DNA of 43,986 nucleotides from Bacteroidota bacterium (GTDB taxonomy: Bacteria > Bacteroidota > Ignavibacteria > Kryptoniales > JAKASW01): the NCBI GenBank assembly GCA_021845665.1, contig JAJZVO010000038.1, positions 1 through 43,986 of the forward strand, in the 5' to 3' direction. A program made the translations under genes and the position numbers. Every line of letters begins with the position of its first letter. The first letter of the stretch is position 1. Shown here one piece after another: positions 29,303 to 33,286 of this stretch. The notes under the pieces were generated by a model. The model worked only from the letters and a program-made list of their open reading frames with translations. It was not told where the DNA came from and made no database searches.

Positions 29303-29386
29303 ATCAAAGCGAGTCAATTGCAATTTTCTGCCGCAGGCGGTAAACTAACTCGCATTCCCGGAGGGATGACGCTTAGTGGAGTCGTT

Positions 29387-30289
29387 ATGAAGACAGAGTA
29401 TTTGGAAAGAGCCAATCGGATAGCCACCGACAATGTTTCGAGCGCACAACAGGTACTAAAAGATACGCTCGATTTGCTGTTGGATTTCTGCGAAAAGTAC
29501 TCGCCGGAAAAAGGCTTTATCCAGGAGCTGAAGTCGATCTCGACTACCCTCTCCAACGCACAGGCCCAAATGGCGGCACTGTCTAACATCTCGAGGCTCA
29601 TCGGTGAATCTTCCGATAGACTCTCAGCCGAAGGCATACATGGGTACATCAAAAGCCTGCGGGAAAAAGTTGAAGAGTCATCTTCGAAAGCGGCGGGCAG
29701 GGCAGCCGGTTTGATCTCCAATGACCGGACATACGCCACTCTGAGTCAGAGCGAGTTTGTGATTAAGACCTTCGAGACCGCCGCAGTTTCCGGAAAGAGT
29801 GCCGTAGTCTATGTGATGGAGTCGCGCCCTCTGTACGAAGGAAGACAGACTGCTCGCGCCTTGAAGTCGATGGGCCATCGCCCAATCCTGGTTTCCGATG
29901 CGGCGATAGGCTTTTTCGTGGAATCCATAGACGCCGCATTCATAGGAGCCGACGCGATACTGTCGGACTGCACCGTTGTCAACAAGGTGGGTTCGTTTGC
30001 ACTTGCCGCCGCCTGCTCCGTTGCCGGCAAAGGATTTCACGCGATAACGAGCGTCCTCAAATACGACCCTGAGAAGAAGGCGATCGGATTCCTCAATAAA
30101 GAAGAAAGCCCGCACGAGATTTTCCCAAACCCTGAATTCGAAGTCAGGAATATATATTTCGATAAGGTAACTCCGCGCCTGGTTACCTCAGTAGTAACGG
30201 AAGCGGGCATCATGAAGCCTGCCGCTGGGAACGACCAGGGAACGCTTCAAAGGAGGCTCGAAGAGGCGATGAAAGAGATTTATGGCTGA
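29387..30289 (+). CDS. eIF2B/MtnA-like isomerase-fold protein
   Basis: A 300-aa protein with the helical N-terminal half and Rossmann-like C-terminal half of the eIF-2B alpha/beta/delta family (which includes methylthioribose-1-phosphate isomerase and ribose-1,5-bisphosphate isomerase). Family motifs include VYVMESRPLYEGRQTA, SDAAIGFF, FIGADAILSDCTVVNKVGSF and the end FDKVTPRLVTSVVTEAGIMK. Start ATG 29387 (GGAG five bases upstream) is preferred to the TTG-like upstream extension. The next gene, an ECF S-component, overlaps its stop by 8 bases, so it may act on the transported compound. The exact substrate is unknown. Confidence 0.75.
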   Translation: MKTEYLERANRIATDNVSSAQQVLKDTLDLLLDFCEKYSPEKGFIQELKSISTTLSNAQAQMAALSNISRLIGESSDRLSAEGIHGYIKSLREKVEESSSKAAGRAAGLISNDRTYATLSQSEFVIKTFETAAVSGKSAVVYVMESRPLYEGRQTARALKSMGHRPILVSDAAIGFFVESIDAAFIGADAILSDCTVVNKVGSFALAAACSVAGKGFHAITSVLKYDPEKKAIGFLNKEESPHEIFPNPEFEVRNIYFDKVTPRLVTSVVTEAGIMKPAAGNDQGTLQRRLEEAMKEIYG

Positions 30290-30875
30290 AGCCTCTTCCC
30301 GGTTCGAGAAGGAGGTGAACGCGACCACCATACCTCTCATAGCCTTCGGCGCGGCGCTGAACATCGTGGTTGGGCAGGCGGTGCAGCTAATCAAGCTGCC
30401 GCTTTATCTCGATTCAATCGGCACCATTCTGATAGCCTGCGTGATAGGTCCGCTGGCTGGAATGTTAACGGGGGCTTTCGCAAATCTAACATTGGGTCTC
30501 TTCTTCAATTATGCATTCATATTCTTCATACCGGTTACGCTGGTGATCGGCGCATTCAGCGGACTTGTTGCGAAAATGGGAGTGTTCAGAAGATGGTACA
30601 CCGCCGTTCCGACGGGATTGGTGCAGGGGATCCTGTCGGCAGTTGCCTCGGCGCCGATAGCTGCTTTCATGTTTGGGGGAGTCACGATGGGCGGCACTGA
30701 CTTTCTTGTTCTCTACTTCAGGGCGATCGGGAAATCGATTATCCAGAGCGCATTCCTTCAGGGGCTCGCGGCGGACCCGGTCGACAAGGCTGTAAGTTAT
30801 CTTATCGTATATTTCCTCCTTAGGAGAATCCCCCGATCGATTCTCATCCGCCTTCCGGGCTATGCAAACGCCTGA
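30282..30875 (+). CDS. ECF transporter substrate-binding S-component
   Basis: A 197-aa membrane protein with about five or six helices. It has the S-component look: a short first segment with ALNIVVGQAVQLIKLPLYLD, then SIGTILIACVIGPLAGMLTG, and a glycine-rich FMFGGVTMGGTDFLV loop. It determines which micronutrient is imported, but its sequence does not match the well-known thiamine, biotin, riboflavin or folate S-components by eye. The start overlaps the eIF2B-like gene by 8 bases and its end overlaps EcfT by 14. Confidence 0.7.
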   Translation: MAEASSRFEKEVNATTIPLIAFGAALNIVVGQAVQLIKLPLYLDSIGTILIACVIGPLAGMLTGAFANLTLGLFFNYAFIFFIPVTLVIGAFSGLVAKMGVFRRWYTAVPTGLVQGILSAVASAPIAAFMFGGVTMGGTDFLVLYFRAIGKSIIQSAFLQGLAADPVDKAVSYLIVYFLLRRIPRSILIRLPGYANA

Positions 30876-31617
30876 AATACCGCGGAGAGGCTATAATCCT
30901 CTCTATCACTACGTCACACTCACGATTGTATTGGCAGCGTTCACATACAGATTGGAATGGCAACTCTTCACTCTTCCGGCCCTGATAGCGGTCACTCTCT
31001 TTTTTCCTGAAAGGAAAAGCACATACAGAGGCTTTCTGAAATTCGTTCTCCCGCTGATACTTATCGGCTTCATAATAAACGGCATCTTCTTCCCCGGTAA
31101 TGTGGCATTCTCTATCGGGCCGGTAAAGTTTAAAGACCAGGGCCTTCTGTTCGCATCCACAGTAGCGGCGAGGCTGACCCTGATCGTAATTGCAGTCAGT
31201 TTCTATTTTTCCCGCGTGAAGCCCGAGACGATTTCCGAATACCTCGCTTCCCGTGGTGCGGACAGGCGCTTCATTTACATTTATCTTCTTTCTGCGGCGA
31301 TGGTTCACCTCATGCGAGACAAGCTGCAGAAGATTTATACCGCGCAGTCTGCTCGCGGGCTCGACACGACGAAGAACGTTTTCACAAGGGCAAAATACCT
31401 GCTGCCGATGCTTGTGCCTCTCTCTTATTCATATATTGCCGAAAGCCTCGATCGGGGCATAGCGCTTCGGGCGGCGAATTTCTCGGACAAGAAATCGTCG
31501 AAGACTCCCGCAGTGGTCCCTCTTGTCGGAATAGAAGTAAACCGGAAAGGCCTCCTGCTTGGAAGGCTTGTCTTGCTGGCTGGAGCAGCTATGGCAATCT
31601 TCAGGTTCGTGAGATGA
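30862..31617 (+). CDS. ecfT: ECF transporter transmembrane protein EcfT
   Basis: A 251-aa membrane scaffold of the ECF module, with four to five helices and the cytoplasmic coupling helices that dock the ATPases. The expected Ala-Arg-Gly motifs appear as QSARGLDTTKN and, further on, RGIALRAANFSDK, the second being a looser match. It is translationally coupled to both neighbours (14-base overlap upstream, 4-base ATGA overlap downstream). Confidence 0.82.
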   Translation: MQTPEIPRRGYNPLYHYVTLTIVLAAFTYRLEWQLFTLPALIAVTLFFPERKSTYRGFLKFVLPLILIGFIINGIFFPGNVAFSIGPVKFKDQGLLFASTVAARLTLIVIAVSFYFSRVKPETISEYLASRGADRRFIYIYLLSAAMVHLMRDKLQKIYTAQSARGLDTTKNVFTRAKYLLPMLVPLSYSYIAESLDRGIALRAANFSDKKSSKTPAVVPLVGIEVNRKGLLLGRLVLLAGAAMAIFRFVR

Positions 31618-32444
31618 AAATTGTTTCGCTGGCTGGATTTTCTGTTTCATATACGAAGGACTCGCCTCCCGCGCTTGACCGAATCGACCTCGACCTGAAC
31701 TCCAGGGAGAGCGTCGTCGTAAGCGGGCTCAGCGGTTCGGGCAAATCGACGCTTTGTCTCGCGGTCGCGGGACTTACAGACACCTTCCCCGCGATGACTG
31801 TGAGCGGCGAGATAAATAGGGGCGAGAGCGCTGATGGAAAGCCGCTGAGAGTCGGCATCGTTCTCCAGAATTTCTATTCACAGATCACTTACCTCCGCTC
31901 GACCGTGATGGAAGAAATCGCGTTCCCTTGCGAGAATCTTGGCATGCCGCGGGAAGAGACGGCCCGTCGTGTATCGGACGCGCTCAATAGAATTCGAATA
32001 TGTCACCTCGCAGAGAGAAGTCCTCTCGAGCTTTCCGGCGGAGAAAAACAAAAAGTGGTACTTGCCGCCGCCATAGCGGGCAAGCCCGACCTCCTTATCC
32101 TCGATGAGCCTCTAAGCCAGCTGGACCCGGAGTCTACTGCCTACCTTGGAAACGTACTCTCTGAACTGAAAAAAGAGATGGCACTGCTGATCGCGGAAAA
32201 CGATCCGTATCTCACTTTGAAGGTCGCCGACAGACTGGTGGTGCTTTCCGAGGGAAAGATAATAGCGGACGGCTCGCCGGAGACTGCGATCAGCCCGTCG
32301 ACCGCAACCTGCCTCGACCTCCCGGCCTGGACAAAATGCGTTTCAAAGGCTGATGAAGAGTCCATCGCTGGTGAGAATCAGGCTACAAGACGATACGAAT
32401 TGAACTACAGGAAAGCGTTGACCCTTTTGAGAGGATCCGTATGA
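31614..32444 (+). CDS. ecfA1: ECF transporter ATPase 1, H-loop His replaced
   Basis: A 276-aa ABC ATPase. Walker A is GLSGSGKST (about residue 38), Q-loop region IVLQNFYSQITY, signature LSGGEKQKV (140-148) and Walker B LLILDEPLSQLDP. Where other ABC ATPases have the switch His (THD) this protein has A-E-N196-D, so the H-loop His is Asn. In the A1/A2 dimer its Walker A site would pair with the degenerate signature of the next protein. ATGA overlaps join it to its neighbours. Confidence 0.88.
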   Translation: MKIVSLAGFSVSYTKDSPPALDRIDLDLNSRESVVVSGLSGSGKSTLCLAVAGLTDTFPAMTVSGEINRGESADGKPLRVGIVLQNFYSQITYLRSTVMEEIAFPCENLGMPREETARRVSDALNRIRICHLAERSPLELSGGEKQKVVLAAAIAGKPDLLILDEPLSQLDPESTAYLGNVLSELKKEMALLIAENDPYLTLKVADRLVVLSEGKIIADGSPETAISPSTATCLDLPAWTKCVSKADEESIAGENQATRRYELNYRKALTLLRGSV

Positions 32445-33286
32445 AGGTCAAGTACGAAAACGTATCGTTCAATTACAACCCAACGGCGGCACTGAGCAAC
32501 GTCTCCTGCGAGTTCGATTCAGGAAAAACAGTTGTTGTTGCGGGTCACAACGGATCAGGCAAGAGCACTTTCCTGAAATTGATGAACGGCATTCTTAAGC
32601 CCACGGAGGGACGAGTAACGCTTGGAGAGATCGGAACTGAGGGGAAGCGGACAAGCGAACTTGCAAGGTTGTGCGCGTTGAGCTTTCAAAATCCCGACGA
32701 CCAGCTTTTCGCGCAGACGGTTAAGAAAGAGCTGAGATTCGGCATCGACAACATCGGTGGAGGTGACGGACTATACGACTCAATCGTGGATACCTTTCAC
32801 CTCAGCGAGCACCTTTATTCTAATCCGTACGCGCTTGTGTATGCGATGCGCAGGCTGGTAGTGATAGGCGCGACGGCAACGATGGGGACACCGATACTCG
32901 CGCTGGATGAACCGACCGCAGGTTTGTCAATTCGTGAAAAGGGATATCTCGGTAATCTTATTTCCTTCCTCAAGGCAAAAGGTACCACGGTCGTAATCGT
33001 TACGCACGATTTGAACTTCTTACTTCCTTATTCGGACGAAATGCTGTTGCTTTCGCACGGCGAGGTACAGTTCAGTGGCGGAAGGGACGAATTCTTCACC
33101 AGGAAGGATGCGCGGGACGTGATGAGACGGTCGGGTATAGGTTATCCGATGTACGCGAGAATTTCATCGGCGCTCGATTTGGGGAAAACCGCTTTCGACG
33201 CAGAAGAAATAGTTGAAGGAGTGGGAAAAAAGAGAGCCGGTACCACCCGGCGCACAAACGGGCAGCACCAGCTCGAGGGGGCATAA
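32441..33286 (+). CDS. ecfA2: ECF transporter ATPase 2, signature motif lost
   Basis: A 281-aa ABC ATPase. Walker A GHNGSGKST, Q-loop FQNPDDQLFAQTV, Walker B ILALDEPTAG and switch His H189 in IVTHDLNFL are intact. The LSGGQ signature is absent: after NPYA the text is LVYAMRRLVVIGA (residues 132-144). The D-loop Asp is Ser (GLS163). The reading frame is clean, so this is not simple decay. It pairs with ATPase 1, which has the signature but not the His. The last ~25 residues are basic. It is the end of the operon and is convergent with the sensor kinase gene. Confidence 0.88.
   Translation: MKVKYENVSFNYNPTAALSNVSCEFDSGKTVVVAGHNGSGKSTFLKLMNGILKPTEGRVTLGEIGTEGKRTSELARLCALSFQNPDDQLFAQTVKKELRFGIDNIGGGDGLYDSIVDTFHLSEHLYSNPYALVYAMRRLVVIGATATMGTPILALDEPTAGLSIREKGYLGNLISFLKAKGTTVVIVTHDLNFLLPYSDEMLLLSHGEVQFSGGRDEFFTRKDARDVMRRSGIGYPMYARISSALDLGKTAFDAEEIVEGVGKKRAGTTRRTNGQHQLEGA

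Follow-up and report, generated by a model that had tools for sequence, protein, structure and literature searches.

The locus described here raises the question of whether both ATPases of an ECF importer have to hydrolyse ATP; that is, whether a motor built from two paralogous subunits can run on a single working site. Descriptions of the ECF motors studied so far give them two functional ATP sites. In the group II motor of Lactobacillus delbrueckii, a Glu-to-Gln change in either ATPase leaves neither ATPase activity nor folate transport (PMC10368641). The initial annotation had started from the same general picture of ECF importers, and the dependence of the characterised motor on both Walker B Glu residues bears it out. 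It had also proposed that the two ATPases encoded in the window (the whole stretch of 43,986 nucleotides that was analysed) form one canonical and one degenerate site, with complementary losses in the two proteins. To address this, we analysed the operon, its relatives within the genus and 45 operons of the same layout.

An ECF operon with unequal ATPases

The operon lies on the forward strand, with genes in the order eIF2B-like, S component, EcfT, A1 and A2. The S component, or substrate binder (30282..30875), is CD3073-like (NCBIfam NF045596, E = 5e-37; Pfam ECF_trnsprt matches weakly); its score of 127 bits against a curated cut-off of 180 makes it a relative of the CD3073 family and not a member. 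EcfT (30862..31617; Pfam CbiQ, 44.8 bits) is followed by ATPase A1 (31614..32444; Pfam ABC_tran), which is EcfA1-like with TIGR04520 as its top NCBIfam match, and by ATPase A2 (32441..33286), which is EcfA2-like with TIGR04521 as its top match. The AlphaFold model of A1 (pLDDT 83.7) has an ABC ATPase fold, with 4mki and CbiO/EcfA as top solved matches; that of A2 (pLDDT 80.2) matches 4mki and EcfA2 chains. An S component, EcfT and ABC ATPases within a single operon identify the system as an ECF transporter (type III ABC importer). The EcfT match is the only one in the genome, which also holds no close second ECF ATPase, and we therefore consider the A1/A2 pair to be dedicated to its own system; no alternative partner is obvious, and a different ATPase as partner of A1 or A2 was rejected. 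The S component is linked to T and A genes of its own and the genome has no shared module, as in a group I ECF system. Close relatives come from metagenome assemblies of Bacteroidetes and Candidatus Kryptoniota. Within the genus, S components share approximately 78–96% identity, compared with about 51–90% for EcfT, A1 and A2.

The eIF2B/ribose-1,5-bisphosphate-isomerase-like gene (29387..30289, forward strand, in an ORF that opens at 29318; Pfam IF-2B, 128 bits) is probably the first gene of the operon. It overlaps the S gene, an adjacency seen solely in the source genus. Its score with NCBIfam TIGR00511 (90 bits against a cut-off of 314) falls below the ribose-1,5-bisphosphate isomerase cut-off. 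The protein is nearer to eIF2B-alpha-like proteins, and its closest solved structure is 1vb5 (E = 1.3e-20). Around the position that we take to be that of the catalytic Cys of the isomerases, it reads TLSQS, and the protein may therefore lack isomerase activity.

In an ABC dimer, each composite ATP site combines the Walker side of one ATPase with the signature and D-loop contributed by its partner. A1 has an intact Walker A (GLSGSGKST, G38–T46; 31725..31751), Q-loop (Q85), signature (LSGGE, L140–E144; 32031..32045), Walker B (LLILDEP, D164–E165; 32091..32111, with Glu165 in place) and D-loop (D171), and has lost the switch His, the position being occupied by Asn196 (32199..32201). A2 has an intact Walker A (GHNGSGKST, G35–T43; 32543..32569), Q-loop (Q83), Walker B (ILALDEP, D156–E157; 32894..32914) and switch residue (His189; 33005..33007), with LVYAM at the signature position (132–136; 32834..32848) and Ser163 replacing the D-loop Asp (32927..32929). 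All of these motifs are on the forward strand, and those on which the initial annotation relied are present in the sequence at the residues it had named. Because composite sites share motifs across subunits, one site here (A2 Walker, A1 signature) reads as fully canonical and the other (A1 Walker, A2 signature) as degenerate, lacking signature, switch His and D-loop Asp. This is the composition of an ABC heterodimer with one degenerate site, namely a consensus site and a site without signature and catalytic residue.

The sources are metagenome-assembled genomes and the A1 of one relative (L053) is split into two ORFs, both of which would fit sequencing error, a frameshift or decaying genes. 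Against this, all 11 genus operons, which come from independent assemblies and whose A1 and A2 are 51–88% identical, have N196, the xxYA replacement and S163, with the same overall pattern. N196, Y134, A135, R137 and R138 do not vary in the genus, and the A2 signature is replaced by [LM]xYA[LMQ] throughout (LPxxx and other forms occur elsewhere). Both genes have dN/dS values of 0.12–0.21, indicating purifying selection. Genus-wide conservation thus excludes read error at the missing motifs, a concern of the initial annotation, and purifying selection excludes pseudogenes or gene decay. An asymmetry in the same direction also occurs in sequenced isolates, among them thousands of E. coli genomes (see below), and we give an artefactual or decaying origin a negligible chance.

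One-sided motif loss across 45 operons

To determine how far the asymmetry extends, we gathered, via the S component, 45 operons with an S-T-A1-A2 layout from four families of the class, Alpha- and Gammaproteobacteria, Enterococcus, Streptomyces and haloarchaea. Sampling beyond the phylum consisted of plasmid-collection records (Paracoccus, E. coli, Salmonella, Streptomyces, Enterococcus and haloarchaea). A signature was counted as intact if it read xSxG[QE], which covers the variation among the homodimer controls; Arg, the A1 switch residue of enterobacteria, falls in an alignment gap and was assigned by hand. The survey shows 132 motif losses at the A1-Walker/A2-signature site versus 5 at the other. 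The 132 comprise the A2 signature (44 of 44 readable operons), the A1 switch His (38), the A2 D-loop Asp (28), and A1 Glu (10), Q-loop Gln (8) and Lys (4). All 5 losses at the A2-Walker/A1-signature site affect the A1 D-loop Asp, in family f17 and in enterobacteria; a sixth flagged loss (A2 Glu, L041) reflects truncation at a contig end and was left out. The canonical site is otherwise retained: A1 has LSGG[EQ] and A2 has Lys and Gln in 45 of 45 operons, and A2 Glu and His are present in every readable operon. As controls we used 23 single-gene CbiO ATPases encoded beside other EcfT genes in the same class, which form homodimers and cannot be asymmetric; all 23 retain the signature, Lys, Glu and D-loop Asp, and 21 of them retain the switch His. 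Given 132 versus 5 losses and largely intact controls, the one-sided pattern is not due to chance. The split between a canonical and a degenerate composite site is thus upheld well beyond the source genus, always in the same direction.

The extent of the loss differs among lineages. In the A1 proteins of family f6 (L033, L034, L036 and L051), LSGGE is kept and Walker A, the Q-loop Gln, the Walker B Glu and the switch His are all gone; these proteins are apparent pseudo-ATPases. The A1 switch residue in family f4 is variable (T, Y, S, N or A), and the Streptomyces A2 signature is only mildly changed (LSLGD). Two single-gene CbiO ATPases of family f6 (L073 and L078) have Gln at the switch position, so that both sites of such a homodimer would be without His.

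These data bear on whether both sites could nevertheless hydrolyse ATP, with the A2 motif at 132–138 and A1 Asn196 replacing signature and switch His in a functionally symmetric pair. The A1 proteins of the genus keep Lys, Gln, Asp and Glu, the A2 replacement motif is conserved in the genus, and ECF homodimer signatures tolerate LSFGE or LSYGE. However, these tolerant signatures retain Ser and the second Gly (23 of 23) and A2 has neither, and lineages that share the A2 loss lack A1 Glu or the entire P-loop, so hydrolysis at two sites cannot be general. We regard two working sites as improbable.

In phylogenetic trees, A1 proteins cluster with A1 proteins and A2 proteins largely with A2 proteins across phyla (an A1 clade is not rejected, p-AU = 0.71), and the duplication is therefore old. 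Mapped on the tree, the A1 losses number at least three for Glu (replaced by Gln in f17 and most haloarchaea and by Asn in f6), three for the Q-loop Gln, at least four for the switch His and one for Lys, and none of these residues was lost in any A2. Four operons combine an altered A2 signature with intact A1 Lys, Gln, Glu and His (L061 from Streptomyces, L104 and L105 from Enterococcus, and L056 from a member of the class), and the reverse case, an A1 loss beside an intact A2 signature, does not occur in the 45 operons. The A2 signature was therefore probably lost first, and catalysis by A1 decayed later and several times, through loss of His, replacement of Glu by Gln or Asn, or loss of the P-loop. 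The same four operons show that the A1 and A2 losses do not always go together, and they are relatives of the kind that the initial annotation had named as refuting such coupling. What stands of the proposed complementary loss is its location: the losses are complementary in place, falling on the same composite site, and their timing is not strictly linked. L107 and L108, two fused pairs from outside the S family studied here, have acceptable signatures on both sides.

The sequence of losses could also have arisen with no mechanistic benefit: after duplication the signature is lost neutrally, one site is enough, and A1 residues drift under relaxed constraint. This accounts for an A2 signature that is altered in all readable operons while A1 is intact in 4 of 45, for the loss of different A1 residues in different lineages, and for the freely varying f4 switch residue, which looks unlike a selected design. 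It fits less well with the fixation of the replacement residues in the genus, and with the fact that most lineages have kept the Walker A Lys and the Glu of A1 well after the signature had gone. In ABCB2/B3, restoring consensus residues is reported to impair transport or coupling (PMC7756269). Neutral drift remains a serious contender, at somewhat less than even chances; it concerns cause, and predicts the same one-site machine as our best explanation.

Proposed transport cycle and substrate

Our best explanation, which we consider likely, is a dedicated group I-like ECF importer with an unequal A1:A2 heterodimer, one hydrolysing site, a probable hinge site in the genus and probably a nucleoside-type substrate. 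What we observe directly is the pattern of motifs, the direction in which it leans, how widely it is spread and conserved, and the tree of the paralogues. We infer that A1 pairs with A2 and which site hydrolyses, from the sequences and from ECF structures, and also the hinge role and the substrate. ATP would be bound and hydrolysed by A2 Walker A and B, Q-loop and switch His together with A1 LSGGE, driving the EcfT coupling helices. Hydrolysis at the A1 Walker motifs, opposite an A2 with a Ser D-loop and no signature, would be inefficient. In the source genus A1 Lys44, Gln85 and Glu165 are all kept, and the second site probably still binds ATP, most likely as a static hinge; exporters in which one site is degenerate have been proposed to use ATP in this way (PMC7756269). 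Given the retained Walker A and Glu165, slow hydrolysis may also take place there. In family f6 the P-loop of A1 is gone and that site probably has no bound ATP. Extended to the whole clade, which is widespread in bacteria (including most E. coli) and haloarchaea, this would mean one hydrolysable ATP per cycle. In f6, the most advanced members, A1 would lend its signature only, and the cycle could do without further hydrolysis or a further bound ATP; we give this broader claim about an even chance.

The transmission interface of EcfT may be asymmetric as well, judging from its predicted coupling helices, each of which ends in a conserved X-Arg-X motif in ECF transporters. The X-Arg-X motif of the first (QSARGLD; 31345..31365, forward strand) is present, and its Arg is kept in all aligned T components. 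At the corresponding position of the second (ALRAANF; 31462..31482, forward strand) the T-component alignment shows no Arg, and it is absent in 11 of 11 genus operons (AANF, ATNF, AAHL and similar; including L022–L031). Relatives have Arg in nearly all cases (LRG/MRG/ARG-type) and Lys in family f17. We read the absence as a local loss because the operon, protein families and relatives otherwise fit an ECF system.

The substrate is probably a nucleoside or a related compound, a guess based on gene neighbourhoods. In haloarchaea, Enterococcus and Lacticaseibacillus the system lies next to nucleoside hydrolase genes, and the E. coli system has a nucleoside/nucleotide kinase-family gene as a neighbour. 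The assignment is less firm for the source genus, in which no nucleoside hydrolase gene lies beside the S component and the neighbour is the eIF2B-like gene, below the isomerase cut-off. No Rfam element was matched between 26000 and 36500, and a riboswitch is thus absent as a substrate clue. Of 5426 complete E. coli genomes, 3302 carry the operon (L102), which is flanked by epd and yggC; K-12 MG1655 lacks it, and we found no described function for this operon. Searches of open-access papers for CD3073, the Salmonella STM307x gene names and a yggC-linked ECF system returned nothing. The E. coli version makes the proposed one-site motor testable, with K-12 as a clean host that lacks the operon.

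Comparison with known transporters

Within ECF importers, the system resembles EcfA-EcfA'-EcfT of L. delbrueckii in combining an S component, a T component and two paralogous ABC ATPases, with A1 and A2 nearest to EcfA1 and EcfA2 in family and fold. It differs in having a single dedicated S component and one degenerate composite site, whereas both L. delbrueckii ATPases have working motifs. The Gln or Asn that naturally replaces A1 Glu in three other lineages would be equivalent to the L. delbrueckii mutations; provided that these systems work, they cycle differently. YkoEDC-type group I systems with fused ATPases (PMC5037267) similarly have dedicated S and T components, and their A1 and A2 branch with the A1 and some A2 proteins of this clade. 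In fused YkoD-like pairs (L074, L076, L080, L083 and L085) A1 is intact and A2 has LGKGE with the D-loop Asp kept, a mild form of the same asymmetry; in the papers searched, we found no mention of LGKGE in the second half. The Cetobacterium CD3073/CD3072 system (L065) has an S component of the same family group, but its gene order is S-TudS-A-A-T and both ATPases are fully canonical.

Outside the ECF group, the closest parallels are the heterodimeric ABC exporters TM287/288, TAP, CFTR and Pdr5 (PMC7756269), which have a consensus and a degenerate site with complementary losses over two subunits. Those are exporters with substrate-binding transmembrane domains, whereas the present system is an importer with a separate S component. 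Among importers, the fused ATPases RbsA and NupO of Bacillus subtilis have one degenerate site, with no Lys in the second Walker A of either (PMC11466899); unlike these, the system described here is of the ECF type, and Walker A of A1 is complete in the genus, although not in f6. We found no description of degenerate ATP sites in ECF systems in the open-access literature, where an earlier mention is possible. The phenomenon is therefore of a known kind, and looks to be new in a dedicated ECF motor. It extends degenerate ATP sites, known from exporters and from RbsA and NupO, to ECF importers, in a graded natural series that runs from symmetric relatives through signature-only loss, loss of the switch His and replacement of Glu by Gln or Asn to loss of the P-loop, and that would offer a direct route to the role of the second ATP in a toppling importer.
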